Positions 22,681 to 35,228 of a stretch of 49,623 nt of DNA are shown piece after piece. The stretch covers positions 1 to 49,623 of the forward strand of contig VGSS01000006.1 in NCBI GenBank assembly GCA_016874935.1. The letters are read 5' to 3'. Under the pieces are notes generated by a model. It made no database searches. It had not been told where the DNA came from and worked only from the letters and a program-made list of their open reading frames with translations. Each line of letters begins with the position of its first letter. Within the stretch, counting starts at the first letter, position 1. The position numbers and the translations under genes were made by a program. This DNA is from Deltaproteobacteria bacterium. GTDB lineage: Bacteria > Desulfobacterota > BSN033 > UBA1163.

Positions 22681-24684
22681 ATGAGGTACACAGAGACAGG
22701 ATATCATTTGGAAATTGATCTATCCCGTGGAAATATTGAAAGGGTGGAAACTGATCCAAGATTAACCGAACTTCATCTTGGGGGTCTGGGGACGAACGCC
22801 AAGATATTGTGGGATAGGGTTCCTCCTGAAACAGAACCCTTTTCTTCTGATAATCTACTCATATTCAGCGCCGGTCTTTTATGTGGCACGCCCGCTCCCG
22901 GTGCGAATCGTACCATTATTTCCACCTATTCTCCTCAGACTTTGTACATGGGCTATTCCATGATGGGTGGGTTTTTGGCGCCGGAACTGAAGTATGCCGG
23001 TTATGACAAGGTGATCTTTCGCGGCAAGTCTCCCAATCTGGTCTATGTGTGGATAAACAATGACAGAGTGGAAATACGGGATGCCTCTCATCTCCGGGGC
23101 AAAGGCGCTGTTGAAACTTCAGAACTTATTAAGCGGGAGTTGAAGGAGCCGAAAGCCCAGGTGGCGGCCATCGGCCTGGCCGGTGAAAACAGGGTCTATA
23201 TGGCTTCCATTGAGCAGGGACGGTCCAGTGCCAGCCGGCTCGGACTGGGCGCCGTCATGGGGGACAAAGGGTTAAAGGCCATCGCCGTTCGAGGAACGAA
23301 GGATATCAACATTGCCCGACCTGCCGAATATATGCAGCTCTGCAACGACGTGCTGCAGTATATAAAAGTCCGGGCCCCAAACCTTATTCCTGAGGTCATG
23401 CCCATTTTAGCAGGGCTTGGGTCGCCACAAGAGATGTTACACACTGATGAGAAGTGGCACACCGAGAATTTCATGTGGGGGAATGCCCGCGTCCGGAGAA
23501 AAGATTTCTGGAACAAGGAAATCGAAGAGAAGTGGAAGGACTCTCTTGAGACCGTGAGGACGCGGCTCATCAGTTGCTACAACTGCCCGATGAAGTGCGG
23601 GGCCATCATTTCCGCCCCGGGAGTTTCAACCTACATGATGAAATGCTTCTCGAAACTGACTTATACCATGGCGGCCTTTGTAGAAGACTTGGATTTTGGT
23701 TTTAAGATCGCTCAGCGGGCTACGGAGTATGGAGTGGACGGATTCTCCATGCCGCAAGCGATGGCTTTTGGCTTTGAGCTTAAAGAAGCAGGGATTTTGA
23801 CGGATGCGGACTTTGCGGGTTGCCCTTCGGATAACGAAGGGAAATTTTACTGGTTGCTTGACCGAATCGTTCGGCGAGAAGGGATAGGAGACGTTTTAGC
23901 CAACGGCACCTATTGGGCGGCCAAGCAGATCGGCAAGGGCGCGGAAGCCTATGCGCATAACAACATTAAGAAACATGAGCAGCTCCCTCTCAAGCTGGGA
24001 ATGCTGAATCCCATTTATTTCCTGATGTATTGTACCGGCGAGAAGGCCAACATTACACAAATCGAAGGGAATTTCCCCCAGGCACCCTTTTCCACGATGG
24101 AGCTGAAACAAGGGTTTGTAAAAGACTGGGTCCAGGCTCCTGACGAGAAATTTAAGAAATATGTTCTGGACTGGGAACTGCGGGGAGAACGCTCCATGCC
24201 ATTTTACCCCCCGGTTGAAGCCTGTTGTGAAATTGTCGACTGGCAAGAGAAGATGCACCACATCGATGACGCTCTCGGATTGTGCGCCGGGTTGTCGTCC
24301 TTTCCCCTGAAACCTCCCTACCACATACACAATTTGCCGGCGTTCATCTCCGCGGCGACCGGAATGGATATGGATGAAGCCGGACTGACGCAAATATTCA
24401 ACAGGAACCGAAATCTGGTCAGAGCCATTAATGTCAGAAGAGGCTTGAGAAGAGCCGATGAGAAGCCGCCGGAGGACCATTGGAAGAAACGATTTCCCGA
24501 GCTTGAAACTCAGCTCCTGGATGCCTACTACAAATTCAAGGGGTGGAATCATGAGGGAATTCCCACGAAGGAATATTTGCATGAATTGGGGTTGGATTAC
24601 GTAGCGGAGGACTTCTTTCGGAGGGGCATCTTGACGAACAACGAAGGCACTCCCTCCACTTCTGCGGAAACAGAAAAGAAATAA
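22681..24684 (+). CDS. bamB: BamB-like tungsten-dependent benzoyl-CoA reductase subunit (AOR family)
   Basis: A 667-residue aldehyde:ferredoxin oxidoreductase-family protein, close to the ~650 of class II benzoyl-CoA reductase BamB. The [4Fe-4S] ligands are Cys299, Cys302 and Cys306 (SCYNCPMKCG), with a further Cys late (DALGLCAGL). Cys322 (MMKCFSKL), Glu251 and His260 (EMLHTDEKWH) fall at the numbers I recall for the metal ligand and proton-transfer residues of Geobacter BamB. Pterin-binding loops (GANRTIISTYSPQ, SRLGLGAVMGDKGLKA) are intact. The expected role is reversible two-electron reduction of an aromatic CoA thioester to a dienoyl-CoA at a tungsten-bis-pterin. Start ATG 22681 follows GAGGGG. 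A paralogue acting on another ring substrate cannot be excluded. Confidence 0.85.
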   Translation: MRYTETGYHLEIDLSRGNIERVETDPRLTELHLGGLGTNAKILWDRVPPETEPFSSDNLLIFSAGLLCGTPAPGANRTIISTYSPQTLYMGYSMMGGFLAPELKYAGYDKVIFRGKSPNLVYVWINNDRVEIRDASHLRGKGAVETSELIKRELKEPKAQVAAIGLAGENRVYMASIEQGRSSASRLGLGAVMGDKGLKAIAVRGTKDINIARPAEYMQLCNDVLQYIKVRAPNLIPEVMPILAGLGSPQEMLHTDEKWHTENFMWGNARVRRKDFWNKEIEEKWKDSLETVRTRLISCYNCPMKCGAIISAPGVSTYMMKCFSKLTYTMAAFVEDLDFGFKIAQRATEYGVDGFSMPQAMAFGFELKEAGILTDADFAGCPSDNEGKFYWLLDRIVRREGIGDVLANGTYWAAKQIGKGAEAYAHNNIKKHEQLPLKLGMLNPIYFLMYCTGEKANITQIEGNFPQAPFSTMELKQGFVKDWVQAPDEKFKKYVLDWELRGERSMPFYPPVEACCEIVDWQEKMHHIDDALGLCAGLSSFPLKPPYHIHNLPAFISAATGMDMDEAGLTQIFNRNRNLVRAINVRRGLRRADEKPPEDHWKKRFPELETQLLDAYYKFKGWNHEGIPTKEYLHELGLDYVAEDFFRRGILTNNEGTPSTSAETEKK

Positions 24685-24705
24685 AGTGAAGAGGTGGTCA
24701 GAGTC

Positions 24706-25248
24706 ATGGGCGAGACAAAAAAGAAAATGGTTAAAACAATAAAAATTGATCTTGATAAATGCAACGGTTGCCGGGCCTGTGAGGTCGTGTGCTCGGCCTT
24801 CCACGCTAAACCGAAATACAGCAGCAATAACCCGGCGAGGTCCCGTATTCGGGTCGTTTTTGACCCACTCAAAGACGTCTATCTCCCTGTCTATGCGGGG
24901 GAGCATGCTAAAGCCGAATGTATGGGCAGAGACAAGTATGTGATTGATGGAAAGGAATACGGCGAGTGCGATTTCTGCAGGGCTTCCTGCCCATCGAGAG
25001 ATTTATTCAAAGAACCCGATTCGGGCCTTCCTCTAAAATGTGATATGTGTGAAGACGATCCGCCGTTAGAAAAGCCCTTGTGTGTTCAGTGGTGCTTAAA
25101 TGATGCCCTGGTTTACGAAGAGAAAGAAGAGGAAGTCGAAGAAGAGGTGAAGATGGAGGACGTGGAGATAGGGTTGGAGTCTATGGTCGATAAATATGGA
25201 ATGCAGAAGGTGATGGATACCGTTGCCCGAATGGCAAAGAGAAGTTGA
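24706..25248 (+). CDS. bamC: BamC-like multi-cluster ferredoxin subunit
   Basis: A 180-residue polyferredoxin of the DmsB/HycB type. Cys motifs in order: CNGCRACEVVC (about 17-27), an isolated CMGRDK, CDFCRASC, and CDMCEDDPPLEKPLCVQWC, enough for three [4Fe-4S] clusters. A Glu-rich tail (KEEEVEEEVKMEDVE) follows. It is the usual small electron-transfer partner of BamB and would join the AOR-like subunit to the Hdr-like proteins downstream. ATG 24706 is favoured over GTG 24694, since GAGG at 24691 is 11 nt before the ATG but directly abuts the GTG. It is 21 bp after bamB, same operon. Confidence 0.83.
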   Translation: MGETKKKMVKTIKIDLDKCNGCRACEVVCSAFHAKPKYSSNNPARSRIRVVFDPLKDVYLPVYAGEHAKAECMGRDKYVIDGKEYGECDFCRASCPSRDLFKEPDSGLPLKCDMCEDDPPLEKPLCVQWCLNDALVYEEKEEEVEEEVKMEDVEIGLESMVDKYGMQKVMDTVARMAKRS

Positions 25249-25307
25249 GATTACGCAGATTTTAAAAACGATTACAAAGATTTAAAAGAAGAGGATTGAA
25301 AACGAGC

Positions 25308-26465
25308 ATGGAGATTGTACCTTTAACCCCCTTTAAGATGGTCATCGATGGCCTCAAAGAGGCGGGTGGAGACGCTGCCAAATTATGCTATCAATGCGGA
25401 AAATGCGATACGGTATGCCCCTGGAATCATGTAAGAAAATTTTTTCTTCGCAGAATGATCAATCAGGCAAAATTTGGCGTGGTTCCTTTCGAATCCGAAG
25501 ACCTATGGCTATGTGCCAGCTGCGGGAATTGTGTTCAGCGGTGCCCCAGAGGCGTGGAAATCATTGACGTCATGAGGGCTATGCGCAGACTGTTGGTGCC
25601 GGATGGTGTGGTTCCTGCGAGCATCCCCAATCTTCGGAGCGTCATGACGAGCATTGCCAGTGTCGGCAATCCCTGGGGGCAGGACCCCGTGGACCGGGCA
25701 AATTGGGCTAAAGACCCAGGGGTAAAAGAGTTCGGCGAGGACACGGAGCTGCTCTATTTCCCCTGCTGCTATCCCAGCTACGACCCAAGATTAAAGAAAG
25801 TCTCTGTTGCCACAGCCAAACTCCTCAACAAGGCAGGGGTCGATTTTGGAATACTCGGACCCAAGGAGAATTGCTGCGGGGAGAGTGTGCGCAAGGCGGG
25901 CAACGAGACATTATTCAAGCACCTTGCCAGGGAAAACATCAAGACGTTTGTCGAAAACGGGGTGAAAAAGATCCTTGTCTCTTCCCCTCATTGTTACCAC
26001 ACCTTCAAGAACGAGTATCCTGAATTCAAAGTGAACTTCGAGGTGGTCCATATCACCCAGTATTTATTCGAGCTGATCCAAAAGGGAAGGCTCGACTTCA
26101 CGAAGGAGTATGGAAAGAGAGTCACTTATCATGACCCCTGTTTCCTGGGTCGGCACAATGGCATCTATGACGAACCCCGGGAGGTCCTGAAAAAAATACC
26201 CGGTTTGGAACTGAAAGAGATGACTGATGCGCGGGAAAATAGCCTCTGCTGCGGCATGGGAGGAGGCAGAATCTGGATGGAAACGGCAAAGGGCGAAAGA
26301 TTCTCCGACCTCAGGCTGCAACAAGCGATCGGGGCTGGGGCGGAGGTGCTGGTCACTTCCTGCCCTTATTGCATCGCCCAATTTGAGGATAGCAGGTTAA
26401 CCCTGAAGGACAGCGAGGTCATCCAGATTAAAGACATCACGGAAATTCTACAGGAAGTCATTTAG
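25308..26465 (+). CDS. bamD: BamD-like HdrD/GlpC-type FeS protein
   Basis: The protein has 385 residues from ATG 25308; TTG 25296 is an in-frame alternative. Two ferredoxin motifs, CYQCGKCDTVCP and CASCGNCVQRCP, are followed by two CCG domains: CCYPSYDP with NCCGES, and DPCFLGRHN with LCCGMGGGR. CCG domains hold the noncubane clusters of heterodisulfide-reductase HdrB/HdrD, and here replace HdrB and HdrC in one chain. The protein lacks a membrane segment. In the Bam complex this subunit lies between HdrA-like BamE and the reductase. The short spacer before it carries a GATTAC repeat also seen at 34124-34160. Confidence 0.83.
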   Translation: MEIVPLTPFKMVIDGLKEAGGDAAKLCYQCGKCDTVCPWNHVRKFFLRRMINQAKFGVVPFESEDLWLCASCGNCVQRCPRGVEIIDVMRAMRRLLVPDGVVPASIPNLRSVMTSIASVGNPWGQDPVDRANWAKDPGVKEFGEDTELLYFPCCYPSYDPRLKKVSVATAKLLNKAGVDFGILGPKENCCGESVRKAGNETLFKHLARENIKTFVENGVKKILVSSPHCYHTFKNEYPEFKVNFEVVHITQYLFELIQKGRLDFTKEYGKRVTYHDPCFLGRHNGIYDEPREVLKKIPGLELKEMTDARENSLCCGMGGGRIWMETAKGERFSDLRLQQAIGAGAEVLVTSCPYCIAQFEDSRLTLKDSEVIQIKDITEILQEVI

Positions 26466-26488: not shown

Positions 26489-29400
26489 GTGGAAGAAGAA
26501 CAAATGGAACAACCCTTTAAAAGTCTCTCGGCAAAGAATTTTGGGGATGTGATGATCGTTGGTGGAGGGATCAGCGGGGTTCAGGCCGCACTCGATCTTG
26601 GCAATGCGGGCTTTAAGGTTTACCTCGTCGATAAAAACCCTTCCATCGGCGGCAAGATGGCCCAGCTGGACAAGACCTTTCCGACCAACGAGTGCTCCAT
26701 CTGAATACTTTCGCCCAAACTGGTCGAGGTCGGCCGGCATCCCAACATCGAGGTCATGAGCTATACGGAAGTGGATCGTGTGGAAGGAGAGGCAGGGGAC
26801 TTTAGGGTAACGCTGCTGAAAAAGGCCAGGTACGTGATCGAAAGCCAATGCACGGGTTGCAACACCTGCGTGGAGTACTGCCCTGTGAAAGTCCCTGATT
26901 CATTTAATCAAGAGATCTCCAAGAACAAAGCCATCCACATCTATTTTGCTCAAGCCATCCCCCTGATCACCTATATCGATGAAAACTGTCTTTACCTGAA
27001 GGAGAAGAAATGTCGGATTTGTGAAGCCGTGTGCGAGAAAAAGGCCATCCATTTTACGCAGACGCCGGAGAAGGTGGAAATAAAGGCGGCCGCGATCATT
27101 CTCGCCCCGGGCTTTGATCCCTTTGACCCTAAGGTGAGGGATGAATATGGCTACGGAAAGATGCAGAACGTGGTCACGAGCATGGACTATGAACGGTTGT
27201 TAAGCTCCACCGGGCCATACGAAGGTGAGATCAGGCGCACTTCTGATTTGAAGCATCCCCATAAAGTGGCCTGGATTCAATGCGTCGGTTCCAGACAGGT
27301 GATCCCGGGCGGCAATAGTTATTGTTCAACCGTATGCTGCACCTATACCCAGAAACAGGTCATTTTAACAAAAGACCATCACCCGGAAGCGGAGTGCACG
27401 ATATTCCATAACGATATTCGATCCTATGGAAAGGATTTTGAGCGGTTCTACGAAAGGACGGAGAGGCTTCCCGGGATTCGGTTTATTAGAAGCTACACCT
27501 CCATCGTTAAAGAGAATCCGGAAAGCAAGGATGTCACCATACGATATTCGACTCCAGAGGATGGAGTCAAAGAAGAGGAATTCGATATGGTGGTATTATC
27601 CGTTGGATTGAATCCTCCCGGTGATGCGAGGGAACTGGCAAATAAGTTCGGCATTGAGCTCAGTTCGCACGGATTCTGTATAATCCATCCGACCCATCCC
27701 ATGGAGACGACACGACCCGGGATCTTTGTAAGCGGGGCCTTCCAGGGTCCTATCGATATTCCCGAGTCGGTTTTTACCGCAGACGGCGCAAGTTCCCAAT
27801 GCGGTGAACTCCTTGACTACCGGCGAGACAAGCTCACCACAGAAAGGGTTTATCCACCCGAAAGAGACGCCTCACAAGAAGAGCCAAAAGTCGGCGTATT
27901 TGTATGTCATTGCGGAGCCAATATTGGAAGAATAGTCAATGTTCCTTCTGTCGTTCAATATAGCCTAAGATTACCTCATGTTGTTCATGCCCAAGAACAG
28001 CTCTTCTCATGTTCCACTGAATCCACCAATCAAATCATGGACGTGATCAGGGAAAAAGGGCTAAACCGCGTAGTGGTCGCCGCCTGTACTCCCAAGACGC
28101 ATGAGCCTACCTTCCGTTATTCGCTTCGAGAAGGAGGGATTAATCAATATTTCTTCGATATGGCCAATATCAGGGAACATTGCTCCTGGGTCCACTCTAA
28201 AGAAAAAGAAGAATCCACCCAAAAAGCAAACGATATCGTCCGGATGTCATTGGCACGATCTTGTCATCTGGAGTCCTTACAGGATTTTGACCTGCCGGTC
28301 AATAAGACGGCGTTGGTGGTGGGAGGAGGCATCGCCGGCATGACGTGCGCTCTCTCCATTGCCAACCAGGGACATGAGGTTTATCTGGTGGAAAAGGATG
28401 CGGGCCTTGGGGGAATCGCACGAAAAATCCATTCCACGTTGGAAGGACTGGATGTTCAGGCCCATTTGCGTGACCTCATAAGAAAGGTGTATCAACATCC
28501 CCTCATCCATGTCTATACGGATGCAACCATCGCGGAGGCTACCGGTTATGTTGGAAATTTCATCACCAGGGTGACGTCCGAGAGAGGGGTTATCGAGATA
28601 AAGCACGGCGCAGCCGTCATCGCCATAGGTGCGGAGGTCTATCAACCTACGGAATACCTTTATGGAGAAGATGACCGGGTGATGACTCACCTTGAGTTGG
28701 AGGAGCAGATCCACAAAGGAGAAGAAAAGGTCATTAAGGCGGAGAGTCTCGTGATGATCCAGTGCGTTGGCTGCAGAAATGAAGAGAGAAATTACTGCTC
28801 CAGAATATGTTGCGGCGAGTCGATCAAGAACGCATTAAAACTGAAAGAGATCAACCCCAAAATGGATATTTACATTCTCTTTCGGGATATGAGAACGTAT
28901 GGGTTTAGTGAAGATCATTACAGGAGGGCGGCGGATAAAGAGGTCAGGTTTATTCGCTATGAGCCTCAGGATAGACCTCAAGTGGAAACGGGTGAGTCGG
29001 AGGAGGGTCGGCCCGTCCTAAAAGTAAAGGTGACGGATTATATTTTAGGAAACAAGCTTGAAATTGATGCCGATATCGTTGCTTTAGCGGCTGCTACGAT
29101 TCCCTCCGCGGGCAGCAAGGAAATATCCAAACACTTCAAGGTGCCTCTGGGTCCGGACGGTTTCTTCCAGGAAGCCCATGTCAAATTGAGGCCTGTTGAG
29201 TTTGGCACCGACGGGGTTTATCTTTGCGGAATCGCTCACTATCCCAAGCATCTCTCTGAAGCGATCAGCCAGGCCTATGGAGCTTCGGGACGGGCCTTAA
29301 CGCTTCTCTCGCATGATACCGTCATCGCCTCCGGCTCTATTTGCGAGGTGGATGAGAAGAAGTGTATGGGATGCGGGGCGTGTGTTGATGCCTGCACCTA

Positions 29401-29575
29401 TGGCGCTATAGAGCTTTATGAAACACGGCAGGGGAAAAAGGCAAAGATGAACCCGGTTCTCTGCAAAGGGGACGGTCTCTGTAACACCAAATGCCCGACA
29501 GGGGCGATCCAATTGAAACACTATACCGATGAAGAGCTGATCGCCCAGATCGATGCGGCGGTTGGAGACGTGTAG
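26489..29575 (+). CDS. bamE: BamE-like HdrA selenoprotein (UGA-recoded, 1028 residues)
   Basis: The frame opens at GTG 26489 (ATG 26504 possible), meets TGA at 26702-26704 and continues open to 29575. The UGA falls in KTFPTNECSI(Sec)ILSPKLVE, where HdrA proteins have Cys in CSMCILSPK, so Sec72 substitutes a cluster-ligand Cys. The N-terminal module has an FAD motif (IVGGGISG, about 25-32), CTGCNTCVEYCPVKVP (about 121) and CRICEAVCEKKAIHF (about 175). A second, complete HdrA-like module follows: VGVFVCHCGANIG (about 469), ALVVGGGIAGM (about 609), CVGCRNEERNYCSRICC, and terminal ferredoxin motifs CMGCGACVDAC (about 960) and GLCNTKCPTGA. Flavin-based bifurcation/confurcation is the known HdrA role. 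A hairpin at 26720-26737 fits a SECIS. Without recoding the gene would appear as two ORFs. Confidence 0.88.
26720..26737 (+). promoter_or_regulatory. candidate bacterial SECIS after UGA 26702
   Basis: CTGGTC (26720-26725) pairs with GGCCGG (26732-26737), six pairs including two G-U, around loop GAGGTC. The loop starts with G and begins 21 nt after the UGA, inside the range known for bacterial SECIS elements. Stability was judged by eye only. Confidence 0.6.
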
Positions 29576-29614
29576 AGATCTAAGAATGAGTGTCTATCCG
29601 TGAAGGGCCTTTTC

Positions 29615-29697
29615 CGTCATGCCGGACTTGATCCGGCATCCAGTCCCGCCTTTAGCGGGTTTGAAAGCACTGGATTCCGGCTTTCGCCGGAATGACG
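29615..29697. repeat. palindromic repeat inserted between the two selenoprotein genes
   Basis: It consists of CGTCATGCCGGACTTGATCC / GGCATCCAG, CCCGCCTTTAGCGGG and CCGGCTTTCGCCGGAATGACG hairpins. It is the same family as 159-278 and 38513-38640. It ends 22 bp before ATG 29720. Confidence 0.75.
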
Positions 29698-29719
29698 ATT
29701 TTGATCGAGGTGAACACGA

Positions 29720-30574
29720 ATGAGCGCGGCCATTAAGTTTAAACCGAGAATCATCGGCTTCGTATGCAATTGGTGAGGATACGGCGCTGCTGACCTCGCT
29801 GGAGTTTCCAGACTACAATATTCAAATGAAATTAGAATCGTACGCATGATGTGTACCGGAAGGGTGGACCTTGCGTTTATACTCCGGTCTTTCTATAACC
29901 GGATCGATGGAGTTTACATCGCTGGCTGCCGTCTTGATGAATGCAAATACATTACTCATGGCAATTACCATGCGCTGAATACGGTGCTTCTATTTAAAAA
30001 AGTGATGGAACACATAGGATTGAACCCGGAAAGGTTAAGAATCGAATTTATGTCTTCCGCTGAAGGGAGCCGTTTTGCAGAGACGGTAAACGACTTTGTC
30101 AGAAAGGTCAGGACAATCGGACCCATCGGAAAGGGTGAAGGATTAAACGGAAACGAATTAACGTCCAGACTGAATCAAATGATGATGTTGATTCCCTATC
30201 TGAAGATAGCCAAAAGAGAGAAACTCTCCTCCCATCTTAAAGACCGGGAAGCGTGGGATCAGCTTTTTACCAGAGACGAGATAGAAACCTTATTCCGAGA
30301 ATTGCCCTCGTACTATATCGATCCGGATAAATGTCAGGCCTGTATGACCTGCGCCAAACGATGTCCCGTAGATGCGATTTTAAGCGGCAAAAACCTGATC
30401 CATATTGTTGATCAGGGCAAATGTGTGAAATGCGGAACGTGTCTTGAGGTCTGCCCGCCCAAATTTGGTGCGGTGACGAAGATTTGCGGAGAGCCTGTTC
30501 CACCTCCTATTCCTGAAGAGAAAAGAACGATCGTCAGAAAGAAGAAAGAAAAAGGACAGACGGATAAGGAGTAA
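29720..30574 (+). CDS. bamF: BamF-like MvhD/ferredoxin selenoprotein (UGA-recoded, 284 residues)
   Basis: ATG 29720, after GAGGTGA, opens a frame whose codon 19 is TGA (29774-29776), continuing to 30574. The UGA lies in GFVCNW(Sec)GYGAADLAG, exactly the CNWCxYxGADLAG motif of MvhD/FrhD delta subunits, where several methanogen and Bam proteins have Sec. The MvhD domain ends near 135 (RVDLAFILRSF, AGCRLDECKYITHGNYHA). A linker leads to two [4Fe-4S] motifs, CQACMTCAKRCPVDAI and CVKCGTCLEVCPPKFG. MvhD mediates electron entry to HdrA, so this pairs with the preceding gene. BamF of Geobacter metallireducens is a reported selenoprotein. A perfect SECIS-like hairpin lies 22 nt after the UGA. A non-recoding gene caller would start it at 29846 and lose the N-terminus. 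Confidence 0.88.
29799..29811 (+). promoter_or_regulatory. candidate bacterial SECIS after UGA 29774
   Basis: CTGGA (29799-29803) and TCCAG (29807-29811) form five Watson-Crick pairs around loop GTT. The loop begins with G, 27 nt after the UGA, matching the bacterial SECIS pattern of a small stem with a G early in the apical loop. Confidence 0.65.
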
Positions 30575-30584
30575 AGGGACTAAA

Positions 30585-31079
30585 ATGATGAAGATCAATC
30601 CGGACTTTATTTCCCCTTGCGGCCTTTATTGCGGAGTCTGTGCCATTTATATCGCGCACCGTGACAATAATCAAAAACTCAAGGAAGCGTTAGTGAATCT
30701 TTACAAGGGAGGAGTTTCCGGGAAAGGGATCCTTCCTAATTGTGAAAACCTTTCGATAGAAGATATCAAATGCCGTGGCTGTTTATCTGATGAACAGTTT
30801 ATGCACTGCCGACAGTGTGAGATCAGGAAATGCACAAGGGAGAAAAGTTATGCCGGATGTCATCAGTGCGATGAATTTCCTTGTCAGTATATTGAACATT
30901 TTCCCATGACTGTTGGCAAAAAGGTTATTTTGCGGGCTATTCCATATTGGCGAGAGGTGGGTGCTGAAAAATGGATTCGAGATGAAGAAACCCGCTACGT
31001 TTGTCCTGAATGCGGCAATAGAGTTTTTCGGGGAGCGGTTAAATGTAATCAGTGTAAAGTGAGTTTGGATCTGGACTAA
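30585..31079 (+). CDS. DUF3795 protein with C-terminal zinc ribbon
   Basis: The protein has 164 residues and is Cys-rich. The N-terminal half has the DUF3795 pattern SPCGLYCGVCAIYIA, then IKCRGCLSDEQFMHCRQCEIRKC and GCHQCDEFPCQYIE. The C-terminus is a zinc ribbon, CPECGNRVFRGAVKCNQCK. DUF3795 proteins are common in anaerobes and have no settled function; metal binding is clear from the motifs. It is 10 bp after the BamF-like gene and just before the membrane FeS oxidoreductase, so it belongs to the same operon and could assist assembly of metal sites, but that is inference. Confidence 0.82.
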   Translation: MMKINPDFISPCGLYCGVCAIYIAHRDNNQKLKEALVNLYKGGVSGKGILPNCENLSIEDIKCRGCLSDEQFMHCRQCEIRKCTREKSYAGCHQCDEFPCQYIEHFPMTVGKKVILRAIPYWREVGAEKWIRDEETRYVCPECGNRVFRGAVKCNQCKVSLDLD

Positions 31080-31103: not shown

Positions 31104-33197
31104 GTGTCACCAGTTAGCGCAACCTATTGGGGCATACCGGGCTATGTAATCTTCTGGGCCTTGTTTGCCATCGCCTTCGGAATATTTATTAGGAGGGTTT
31201 ATTTCCTCATTCGCCTTTTGGGTCTGGGAAAACCCGAAAACCGGTTCGATCAATTGCGACAGAGAATCATAGACATGTTAGCCATTAATTTATCCCAATG
31301 GTGCTCCTTAAAGACGGTTAGCTTCAAAGACCTATCTGGAATTGGACATGCCCTTATGTTCTGGGGGTTCGGCGTATTCTTGATTGGCTACGTTCTCTTC
31401 ATGGGTCTGCGGGAGGGGTTTGGTATCTCTGTATCGTCTGCTGGTAGCCTATTTGAGAAAATCTACCTTTCCCTCATGGACCTATCTGCTTTGCTGATTA
31501 TCTTAGCGGTGATCCAGGCAGCCATCAAGCGGTATGTCACGAAACCTGAGAGGCTGGAGAGAAAAGAAGATCCCAAAGAGGCACTTATCGAAAACATTAA
31601 AATGATCTCGCTCTTTACCACAATGATTCTTCTGATGTTGTTTTATTACTGGATGGAAGGCATTCGATATGCTTTTAACAATATCACCACTTCCTGGCCT
31701 CCTATCACGGGGGCTCTGGCAAGTTTTCTCGCTGGATCAGGAATATCTCAGGAATCGTTGTCAGCAACCTACAAAACGATTTGGTGGCTCAATTATCTTC
31801 TCCTTCTTGGTGCTGTCGTTTATACCCCTCATTCCAAGCATCTACACCCCCTTTTCTCCTCGGCCAATATTCTTTTCAAACCATTCGGGTCCAAAGTGGT
31901 GTTAGAACCCATACCGCTTGAGGCACTTGAAGCTCCTGAAGGCTCTGTGACCCTTGGTGTATCGAAGATTCAGGACTTTTCCTGGAAGCAACTCCTGGAT
32001 CTCTATGCCTGTACCTGGTGCGGTCGGTGTCATGTCAATTGCCCCGCTCAGTTGACGGGGAAAACGCTTTCGCCCAGAGAGATCATTCTGAATCTGAAAG
32101 AGCATTTAATGGAGGCGGGCCCTGAATTGTTAGCCAACAAGGGGACATCCTCTCCAGAGGTTCAGCCCAAGACCATGTCAAAAACAATGATCGGTGACGT
32201 CGTAGCAGAGGAGGAGATCTGGGCCTGCACGACCTGTGCTGCCTGTCAAGAGGTGTGTCCATCCAACATCGAACATATACGCAAAGTGATCGAACTCAGG
32301 CGAAACCTGGTGTTAGAGCAAAGCAAGATGCCAGAGAGTGCTCAGTTGATGCTCAGAAATATGCAGCAGAGAGGACACCCTTGGGCTGGAGTCCAATCCA
32401 TGAGGTTGAGGGGCGACTGGACATCGGATCTGGACATTAAAGTATTGACTGATGGTGATAGCGTCAACACCCTATTCTGGGTAGGTTGTACTGGAGCGCT
32501 TGTGGAGCGGAATGTCAAAGCAACCCTTGCCATGACAAAGGTATTGAAAGCGTCTGGAGTTGATTTTGGGGTATTGGGCGATGCGGAAACCTGTTGTGGA
32601 GATCCAGCGCGGAGAGCAGGGTATGAGTTCCAATTTCAGATGATGGCAGAGCAGAATATCGAAATGTTCAAAAGCTTCAACATTAAGGAAATCATCACCA
32701 CCTGCCCTCACTGTTTTAATACGATGAAACACGAATATCCAAAATTCGGTGGCGATTTCAAAGTGGTTCACTACACCGAGTTGATCGCTGATTTCGTCCG
32801 ACAGGGAAAACTTAATCTAACTCAAGCCTTAAATGCCAAACTCACCTACCATGATCCCTGCTATTTGGGTCGTTATAATGGGATCTATCACGACCCGCGT
32901 CAGATTTTGGAGGCTATTCCCAAGGCTAAGCTTGAGGAGATGGAACGATCGAAAGAACAGGGTTTTTGCTGTGGCGGGGGCGGCGGGCTCATGTGGATTG
33001 AAGAGCAGCCTGGCACAACAAAGATTAGCCACATGCGTATTGAAGAGGTTCATAAGAGCGGGGTTGAAATGGTCGTTAGCGCTTGTCCCTATTGTTTACA
33101 GATGTTCGAGGATGCCATTGACCATAAAGGCATGAAGGAATCGCTGAAGGCAAGAGATATTGTTGAACTCGTGGAAGAATCCATGAAGAAATCTTAA
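31104..33197 (+). CDS. EMO-type membrane FeS oxidoreductase (Etf:menaquinone oxidoreductase candidate)
   Basis: The protein has 697 residues. The N-terminal ~250 form about five membrane helices (near 10-30, 85-105, 125-145, 168-188, 225-245) with candidate haem His residues in GIGHALMFWG and HSKHLHPL, like NarI-type cytochrome b. The cytosolic part has CTWCGRCHVNCP and CTTCAACQEVCP ferredoxin motifs, then two CCG domains (GCTGALVERN/TCCGDPA and DPCYLGRYN/CCGGGGG). This architecture next to etfBA is that of the EtfAB:menaquinone oxidoreductase reported for syntrophs and Geobacter. It would take electrons of acyl-CoA dehydrogenases from Etf to menaquinone. Start GTG 31104 is 6 nt after ATAGGAGGTC. 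The CCG part is clearly related to the BamD-like protein upstream. Confidence 0.88.
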   Translation: MSPVSATYWGIPGYVIFWALFAIAFGIFIRRVYFLIRLLGLGKPENRFDQLRQRIIDMLAINLSQWCSLKTVSFKDLSGIGHALMFWGFGVFLIGYVLFMGLREGFGISVSSAGSLFEKIYLSLMDLSALLIILAVIQAAIKRYVTKPERLERKEDPKEALIENIKMISLFTTMILLMLFYYWMEGIRYAFNNITTSWPPITGALASFLAGSGISQESLSATYKTIWWLNYLLLLGAVVYTPHSKHLHPLFSSANILFKPFGSKVVLEPIPLEALEAPEGSVTLGVSKIQDFSWKQLLDLYACTWCGRCHVNCPAQLTGKTLSPREIILNLKEHLMEAGPELLANKGTSSPEVQPKTMSKTMIGDVVAEEEIWACTTCAACQEVCPSNIEHIRKVIELRRNLVLEQSKMPESAQLMLRNMQQRGHPWAGVQSMRLRGDWTSDLDIKVLTDGDSVNTLFWVGCTGALVERNVKATLAMTKVLKASGVDFGVLGDAETCCGDPARRAGYEFQFQMMAEQNIEMFKSFNIKEIITTCPHCFNTMKHEYPKFGGDFKVVHYTELIADFVRQGKLNLTQALNAKLTYHDPCYLGRYNGIYHDPRQILEAIPKAKLEEMERSKEQGFCCGGGGGLMWIEEQPGTTKISHMRIEEVHKSGVEMVVSACPYCLQMFEDAIDHKGMKESLKARDIVELVEESMKKS

Positions 33198-33244: not shown

Positions 33245-33298
33245 ATCAATCTTTATGGTTTACATGTACCCACAAAGTATAAGGAAGGAGTGACTCGT

Positions 33299-34093
33299 AT
33301 GAATACCATCGTCTGTGTAAAACAAGTACTTGATCCAGAAATTCCGCCAGCCAAATTCAAGATTGACCCCGGGACCAAACAGGTGATCCCTCCTCCGGGA
33401 GTGCCGCCTGTCATCAGCGTATTCGATGAACGGGCTGTGGAGGCTGCCTGCCGGCTTAAGGATAAGCACAAAGGAAAGATTACCGTGATCAGCATGGGGT
33501 CAGCCAAGGCGGTTGATGTGATCAAACACGCCATCTCCATGGGAGCCGATGATGGATATGTCCTCCAGGATCCGGCTTTCGAAAACCTGGACAGCTTTGG
33601 AACGGCCTATGTCTTGGGAAAAGCCATCCAAAAAATTGGCAACTATGATCTCATCCTGTGTGGCCGATATTCTGCTGACTGGGGCGCTGGTCAGGTGGGG
33701 TCTATATTAGCTGAAATACTCAGCATTCCGGTCGTGACTTTTGCCTGTGATATTCAGGCTGTGAACAAGAATCTGAGGATAAAGAGGATAATGAAGGACG
33801 GTTATGAAGTTGTGGAAGCACCCATGCCCAGCCTGATTACCGTCAGCGGAGAAATCGGTCTTCCCCGACTTCCTGGTGGAATGGGTCTGATGCTTGCTCG
33901 AAAGAAACAGATTCCAATCTGGAAGGCACAGGATATTGGAGCTGATCCCTCGCCGTTGGACAAGGCGAACGCCCACATCGAGGTCACCAGCCTCTCTTTA
34001 CCGACACGAAAGACCGAGTGTGAGTTTGTTACCGGGAATACACCAGGTGAGGCGGCAGTCAATTTAGCCCAAAAGCTTGTCAGGCTGATGTGA
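33299..34093 (+). CDS. etfB: electron transfer flavoprotein, beta subunit
   Basis: The protein has 264 residues, normal for EtfB. N-terminal NTIVCVKQVLDPEIPPAKFKI, the nucleotide-binding ISMGSAKAVDVIKHAISMGAD, and CGRYSADWGAGQVG are family marks. The IDPGTKQVIPPPGVPPVISV insertion is the form seen in anaerobe Etfs paired with EMO. ATG 33299 is chosen because AAGGAAGGAG (33281-33290) is 8 nt before it and overlaps the GTG at 33290. EtfAB ferries electrons from acyl-CoA dehydrogenases to the membrane oxidoreductase directly upstream. Whether this Etf bifurcates was not determined from sequence. Confidence 0.94.
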   Translation: MNTIVCVKQVLDPEIPPAKFKIDPGTKQVIPPPGVPPVISVFDERAVEAACRLKDKHKGKITVISMGSAKAVDVIKHAISMGADDGYVLQDPAFENLDSFGTAYVLGKAIQKIGNYDLILCGRYSADWGAGQVGSILAEILSIPVVTFACDIQAVNKNLRIKRIMKDGYEVVEAPMPSLITVSGEIGLPRLPGGMGLMLARKKQIPIWKAQDIGADPSPLDKANAHIEVTSLSLPTRKTECEFVTGNTPGEAAVNLAQKLVRLM

Positions 34094-34226
34094 TGAGAGC
34101 TCAAAATACTTTTTTCACTCTCTGATTACTCAGATGATGAAGCGATTACACCGATTAGAACGGAAAAATCTCAGTAATCATTTTTTAAAAACACTGTAAT
34201 CAAGAATTGAAATGGAGGGATATACC

Positions 34227-35228
34227 ATGGCTAATCATAAAGGTATTTTGGTTTGTGGAGAAATCGCTCAGGGGAAATTAGCACCAATCACGATAGAACT
34301 CCTTGGGGTCGGAAGAAAACTGGCCAATGAATTGGGCGAAGATCAGAGCGTCCTTTTGATGGGTAGCCAAGCAGGTGGCCTGGGCCAGGAGGCAATTGCT
34401 TACGGAGCCGATAAAGTCTATGTTGCAGGAGAGGGTCTCTTAGATGATTACAATTCCGATGCCTACACTCAGGTCGCGGCAGACCTTTGCCGGAAAGAAC
34501 TTCCCTCGATTGTTCTTTTGGGCCATACCGATGTCGGTTGCGATTTGGCCCCTCGACTCAATGGACGCTTGGGAGGGGGGCTTTCCATGGATTGCGTGGC
34601 CTTGTCCATTGATCCGTCAACAAAACTCCTTGTCTCGACCAGACCTGTTTTCGGTGGGAACGCTCAAGCCACCATGATGTCCAGATCCGCAAGGCCTCAG
34701 ATGGCAACTTTAAGACTGAAGACCGTTCCGCCAGCAGAACGGAATGAATCCCTCCAAGGCCAGGTCATTCCGGTAGACAGTAAGATTGATCCTTCGGCGA
34801 TTAAGGTGAAGGTTGTCGAGCGGATCAAAGAAGAGGTGGAGGGTGTGAAACTTGAGGACGCTGAAGTCGTTGTTGCTGGTGGACGTGGAATGGGTAGTGC
34901 CCAAAACTGGGAGATGATCAAGGAATTAGCTCGTGTTTTGAACGGCGCAGTTGGGGCAACGAGACCTCCATGTGATGAGGGTTGGGCACCGGTGTCGCTC
35001 CAGATCGGTCAGAGCGGAAAGGTAATCAACCCCAAACTCTACATCGCCGTGGCTCTCTCCGGGGCCATGTCGCACATCTCTGGCTGTTTGGGATCGAAGT
35101 GCATCGTGGCTATCAATAAGGATAAGGAGGCCAACATCTTCAACGTAGCCCACTTCGGTATCGTCGGAGACTATAAAGAAGTCTTGCCTGCTCTGACCGC
35201 GAAACTAAAGGAGCTGAAATTAAAATAA
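34227..35228 (+). CDS. etfA: electron transfer flavoprotein, alpha subunit
   Basis: The protein has 333 residues. The C-terminal FAD domain shows [57 protein letters not shown] and [10 protein letters not shown], all canonical. The N-terminal domain begins [19 protein letters not shown] 34227 is favoured because GGAGGG (34214-34219) is 7 nt before it and lies inside the alternative ATG 34212. The 133-bp gap from etfB holds GATTAC-type repeats and no gene. It is the last gene of the catabolic run; no terminator is evident after it. Confidence 0.94.

Follow-up and report, generated by a model that had tools for sequence, protein, structure and literature searches.

The occurrence of selenocysteine (Sec) in the FrhD and HdrA proteins of Deltaproteobacteria, also within one operon, was reported in 2006 (PMC1794560); the available parts of that paper list four Sec FrhD and four Sec HdrA proteins for Syntrophus aciditrophicus and one Sec FrhD for Geobacter metallireducens. 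Adjacent genes encoding Sec-containing HdrA and MvhD proteins were described in 2009 (PMC2702500, as far as its available text goes), and the accessible sections of PMC13188914 list both PF02662 proteins with a CxxU motif and a frhA-frhD-hdrA selenoprotein operon. Concerning class II benzoyl-CoA reductases, excerpts of the literature mention a BamE containing Sec (PMC5109826), a predicted selenite binding by the BamF of Geotalea daltonii (PMC13119186), and a bifurcation model for the Bam complex (PMC12096430); the [2Fe-2S] cluster of MvhD is stated to hand its electrons over to the FAD of HdrA (excerpt of PMC6019823). Neighbouring genes for Sec-containing HdrA and FrhD/MvhD proteins in bacteria were already published in 2006–2009, and BamF is a known kind of selenoprotein. 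The Sec FrhD of G. metallireducens is presumably its BamF, and Peters et al. 2004 reportedly dealt with Sec proteins in benzoate metabolism.

The window, i.e., the whole stretch of 49,623 nucleotides analysed here, harbors a seemingly broken gene that is most likely intact, its in-frame UGA being predicted to be read as Sec. With a probability of about 0.95, this gene is bamF, coding for an MvhD-type electron-transfer subunit embedded in a class II benzoyl-CoA reductase cluster (bamBCDEF), whose UGA at codon 19 would be decoded as Sec (Table 1). The identity of the cluster is indicated by bamB, whose product matches 4z3w ("Benzoyl-CoA reductase, putative") with 1137.5 bits over residues 1–652, the next solved match being 1aor with 206.7 bits. 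We take 4z3w to be BamB itself. The same upstream neighbours are found in many relatives with enough flank. The repeat element lying between bamE and bamF has matches in the bacterium's own genome that are 75–100% identical.

Table 1. Features of the bam region, with positions in the window.
Feature	Position	Strand	Basis
bamB, AOR-family (tungsten-type) catalytic subunit	22681..24684	+	best solved match 4z3w
bamC-like 4Fe-4S protein	24694..25248	+	Fer4 domains; adjoins bamB
bamD-like HdrD protein (CCG domains + 4Fe-4S)	25296..26465	+	PF02754, 1e-36
bamE-like HdrA protein gene	26504..29575	+	HdrA2 model, 949 bits, under the curated cut-off of 1100; PDB HdrA chains
in-frame UGA of bamE, codon 67, CSI-U	26702..26704	+	58 distinct aligned homologues: 45 TGA, 12 Cys, 1 misaligned
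SECIS-type hairpin of bamE, loop AGGT	26720..26737	+	fold; 18-mer identical in 38/45 UGA forms
dispersed repeat element, bamE–bamF intergenic	29610..29700	+	43 matches in own genome, itself included
ribosome-binding site GAGGTGA	29707..29713	+	sequence letters
bamF/mvhD, putative selenoprotein gene	29720..30574	+	PF02662, 5.7e-45, and Fer4; PDB MvhD chains 5odc_D etc.
UGA codon 19, predicted selenocysteine (CxxU)	29774..29776	+	distinct homologues: 57/68 TGA, 11 Cys, 0 other
SECIS-type apical hairpin of bamF, CTGGA-GTT-TCCAG	29799..29811	+	overlying 15-mer identical in 50/57 UGA and 0/11 Cys forms
DUF3795 protein	30585..31079	+	PF12675, 2.2e-18
HdrD/HdrF-like Fe-S protein, hydrophobic N-terminal part	31104..33197	+	CCG and Fer4 domains
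EtfB	33290..34093	+	PF01012
EtfA	34212..35228	+	PF00766, PF01012

The order bamB-C-D-E-F and the types of proteins encoded are those of the class II benzoyl-CoA reductases of G. metallireducens and G. daltonii (locus-tag order in the accessible part of PMC1924859, bam subunit types in that of PMC12016498). Unlike in these organisms, where bamGHI come after bamF, the gene is here followed by those for the DUF3795 protein, the HdrD/HdrF-like protein, and EtfBA, and no NuoE/F/G-type domain (BamGHI) was listed among the 29 window proteins scanned. The HdrD/HdrF-like protein has four hydrophobic stretches, starting from residues 9, 80, 116, and 160, and might possibly be a membrane electron outlet; a bifurcating Bam complex would probably have its high-potential partner in the pair of Etf and Fe-S proteins. 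EtfB and EtfA were seen behind bamF solely in the window and in the loci L059–L063 and L065, many other loci ending too soon to tell. The gene for the DUF3795 protein is also located behind bamF in L028, L032/L065, and L033. In two distant relatives (L072 and L092), six ORFs out of the 20 listed downstream of bamF were scanned, and none of the six showed an electron-outlet domain.

The locus resembles that of Desulfococcus multivorans in having a BamE with UGA and ETF genes (bamOP in that organism) in the bam cluster; it differs in that BamF is absent from the five selenoprotein genes named in the available excerpt of PMC5109826, which include an mvhD gene. With the hdrA-mvhD loci of Desulfobacterium autotrophicum it shares the Sec HdrA and MvhD encoded by neighbouring genes, but the genes associated with those loci are for hydrogenase, formate dehydrogenase, or sulfite reductase (PMC2702500, in its available text) and not bamB. 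In the same way, BamF is similar to the FrhD/MvhD/VhuD selenoproteins of the PF02662 family in its domain, its CxxU motif, and the adjoining Sec-containing HdrA, and departs from them in the two additional C-terminal 4Fe-4S motifs and in being linked to bamB, not to a hydrogenase.

The initial annotation had placed the start of the gene at ATG 29720, behind a GAGGTGA site, with a frame broken only by TGA 29774–29776, and the sequence letters bear this out: the frame runs up to the terminal stop at 30572–30574, comprises 284 residues when the UGA is read as a residue, and contains no in-frame stop before the terminal one other than this TGA, which lies within CNW-U-GYGAADLAG. A purine-rich stretch resembling GAGGTGA was recognized by eye at the same place in many of 41 homologous rows. 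The protein consists of an FlpD (MvhD) domain at residues 11–134 (PF02662, 152.7 bits with a cut-off of 22.3) and of two 4Fe-4S motifs within residues 198–250. Its nearest solved chains are the MvhD-type subunits 5odc_D, 8rvu_F, and 7bkb_F, and the three alignments shown place the UGA residue opposite the second Cys of CNWC. The assignment to an MvhD/BamF-like family with Sec or Cys in this motif, also made at the outset, thus agrees with the domain, with the PDB chains, and with the codons of the homologues.

BamF loci were gathered from 40 genomes, including that of the bacterium itself; 21 of these genomes gave a match at E 1e-40. Named genome contigs contributed 58 loci. The codon 19 counts are based on the 78 match rows that span residues 17–45 and have a readable letter at this codon, with TGA in 67 rows, TGT in nine, and TGC in two; once repeats were removed, 68 distinct sequences were left, 57 with TGA, 11 with a Cys codon (TGC/TGT), and none with any other codon. 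L031 and L063, which seem to represent one and the same gene, were excluded from the codon 19 and hairpin counts because a short run of N covers codon 19 in the assembly of one relative. The UGA forms include Thermodesulfobacteriota, Bacillota (Pelotomaculum, Desulfotomaculum, Peptococcaceae), and Chloroflexota, and a second bamF copy in the own genome (G000:C30) has the UGA too. The neighbouring cysteines are conserved, with C16 in 68/68 readable rows and C45 and C75 in 69/69. The idea that the UGA arose by chance as a nonsense mutation, or through an assembly error, in a decaying gene is already refuted by the TGA found at codon 19 in 57 of 68 distinct homologues across phyla; a frame without any further stop and a protein-level selection acting on either side of the UGA also speak against it, and even though a tRNA-Sec was not seen in the own assembly (see below), we regard it as extremely improbable. 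The opinion expressed at first, that chance nonsense mutations are very unlikely, is shared here on the basis of a TGA kept across phyla.

A different possibility is that translation truly starts at ATG 29846, where the ORF listing made with table 11 does give an ORF, yielding a 242-residue protein without the CxxU motif; it had been named in the initial annotation as the case in which the homologues would contradict its reading. The dN/dS comparison comprised 41 rows with at least 60% identity, all of them UGA forms and six of them repeats of an already counted genome. Over bamF codons 1–18, dN ranges from 0.02 to 0.34 and dS from 0.40 to saturation, with dN < dS in 41/41 rows; the same holds after the UGA (hairpin omitted), except for L033 (dN 0.28, dS 0.21). 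The codons upstream of the UGA are kept as protein in every one of these rows, and a start at 29846 is therefore to be excluded; in addition, the 11 Cys forms align across codon 19 into the same N-terminal part, and the FlpD domain already starts at residue 11. The shorter protein is, in our opinion, scarcely credible, and the frame starting at ATG 29720 is retained in the following.

The bamF hairpin was recovered on the letters just as initially described, with the loop G placed 27 nt past the UGA; the stem of 5 bp begins after a gap of 22 nt and carries the loop GTT. The bacterial SECIS model, in the available text of PMC13188914, has a loop of 3–9 nt carrying a G within its first two positions, a stem of 4–16 bp, a distance of 16–37 nt from the UGA, and a folding energy of −7.5 kcal/mol or below. 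The hairpin fits this model in loop size, in the loop G followed by U, in the stem, and in the distance; the 61-nt fold, at −13.8, lies below the energy limit (z = −1.37; 21 of 200 shuffled sequences do no worse), and the 39-nt fragment, which folds at −5.3 kcal/mol, misses it. Praised as "excellent" from one sequence, the hairpin does not stand as an argument in that form: when bamF was synonymously recoded 20,000 times with the codon usage of the window, 31% of the recodings yielded a stem-loop that satisfies our own loose rule for bacterial SECIS elements, which asks for five pairs.

As a putative SECIS element, the hairpin is convincing through its conservation across homologues and not through its single-sequence appearance. 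The exact 15-mer GCTGGAGTTTCCAGA lying over it is present in 50 of the 57 UGA forms and in none of the 11 Cys forms. The stem is complete, with five pairs, in 52 of the UGA forms and retains at least four pairs in all 57, the loop G being present in 57/57; the four forms with GCTGGCGTGTCCAGA (L074, L081, L100, L103) keep four stem pairs and fail the five-pair rule, and L036 possesses its own hairpin in a shifted register. The 11 Cys forms comprise one with five stem pairs (L104), perhaps a remnant, and five with at least four. The loose rule is passed by 53/57 UGA forms and 5/11 Cys forms. The residues under the hairpin, AGVSR, are the same in 57/57 UGA forms and in 4/11 Cys forms, so that only four Cys sequences allow a comparison with identical residues, and GCTGGAGTTTCCAGA is found in 0/4 of them. 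Its expected frequency per AGVSR-coding sequence, calculated from the codon usage of the window, is 0.0012, which is no formal probability because the sequences are related, yet synonymous sites elsewhere are often near saturation. Queries of the open-licence literature, not aimed at nucleotide conservation alone, found no published description of a constant bamF hairpin; the near-frozen hairpin is possibly new.

The decoding of UGA as Sec calls for a dedicated machinery, of which the initial annotation had proposed to look for SelB. SelA, SelB, and SelD were all found in the own genome over the curated cut-offs (626.1, 371.4, and 388.1 bits, respectively). The internal TGA of the own selD (one, at L018, G000:C187:1840-2766) suggests that SelD is probably a selenoprotein itself. 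No tRNA-Sec exceeded the 47-bit cut-off among the 150 of 412 candidates scored in the own assembly, the best of 13 weak matches reaching 43.1 bits; ARAGORN recognized ordinary tRNAs only at the eight best candidate loci, a hand-made T-arm pattern gave 46 matches and no candidate, and Rfam did not find a tRNA-Sec at the selA, selB, and selD loci. A match over the cut-off was obtained in 34/40 genomes, with 76–83 bits in G001–G008 and no more than 47.0 bits in G009, all nine being genomes of the same genus; matches barely over the cut-off may be tRNA-Ser. The own assembly is 90.9% complete and consists of 206 contigs, and the absence of tRNA-Sec is most likely due to a gap in it. The same absence might favour a reading of the UGA as Trp or Cys, by suppression or through a changed code, rather than as Sec; however, the residue of the BamF family at this place is Cys, replaced solely by TGA, SelA, SelB, and SelD are present, and the 15-mer hairpin accompanies the UGA, all of which make such a reading very improbable compared with Sec.

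With its UGA translated, the upstream bamE encodes 1023 residues, counted from ATG 26504, which we chose as the start. In the two HdrA alignments shown, the UGA residue is paired with the second Cys of a CxxC motif (CSMC in 8rvu). Like that of bamF, the bamE hairpin, CTGGTCG-AGGT-CGGCCGG, begins with CTGG and has a G early in the loop; otherwise the two are unlike. The loose SECIS rule is passed by 45/45 UGA forms and 0/12 Cys forms of bamE. An upstream HdrA-type gene was seen for 53 of the 68 distinct BamF genes, and none within reach for the other 15. These 53 pairs are UGA/UGA in 43 cases, Cys/Cys in six, and mixed in three, one being unusable (L121, poor local alignment); Sec is predicted in BamF only in two mixed pairs (L072, L105) and in the HdrA-type protein only in one (L118). 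The association is strong in the 52 usable pairs (Fisher p 9e-6, uncorrected for kinship). On a BamF tree of 64 rows, from which four of the 68 were left out as too short (L118–L121, Sec70 forms among them), the pair types need 5 changes vs a shuffled mean of 8.8, the 12 rows without a seen partner being omitted. The paired Sec sites postulated at the beginning are thus usual (43/52 UGA/UGA) but not strictly so, and a strict coupling of the two sites was rejected on account of the three mixed pairs out of 52. In the bam-type clusters of L094, L102, and L104, both BamE and BamF have Cys, and these represent natural selenium-free versions; no bamB was seen within the locus of L104.

A second place for selenium emerged from residue 70 of BamF, which is Cys in 66/69 rows and TGA in 3/69. 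The three are remote homologues (L043, L119, L121) in which codon 19 specifies Cys and TGA occurs at codon 70, the place of another family Cys; the states of the two codons in the 68 readable rows are U19/C70 in 57, C19/C70 in eight, C19/U70 in three, and U19/U70 in none. The apparent use of codon 70, and not 19, for Sec in these homologues is possibly new; this place may be known in archaea, since some archaeal FrhD/VhuD proteins are mentioned as carrying multiple Sec residues (accessible part of PMC13188914). It may be, although we consider it rather doubtful, that selenium occurs at codon 19 or 70 and never at both, and that the SECIS nucleotides belonging to codon 19 are almost frozen across phyla.

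On the basis of these data, the following scheme can be proposed. SelB would decode UGA codon 19 of bamF as Sec with the aid of the hairpin starting after 22 nt, and Sec19 would take the place of the second Cys in the CxxC motif of MvhD chains; that Sec is actually inserted at this residue we infer, and Sec19 might act as a ligand of the [2Fe-2S] cluster. By analogy with HdrA–MvhD, the MvhD domain of BamF would exchange electrons, in one direction or the other, with the flavin of BamE, itself probably Sec-bearing, and BamE, BamD, and BamC would connect these electrons to the tungsten site of BamB. The direction of electron flow in the Bam complex and its use for aromatic acids we infer likewise.

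Judging from bamB, the reduction of aromatic rings, or the same path in reverse, is a probable trait of this bacterium. Two of its genes, which an ordinary annotation would split or truncate, are rescued by this reading. The 57 UGA and 11 Cys homologues of BamF offer a natural experiment on the importance of individual SECIS nucleotides, in that 4/11 Cys forms share the residues of the UGA forms under the hairpin with differing codons. If the pattern tentatively outlined above for codons 19 and 70 were true, one selenolate would suffice in MvhD/BamF proteins and either place could serve, and the SelB of these bacteria would read a near-fixed sequence here, not any hairpin.
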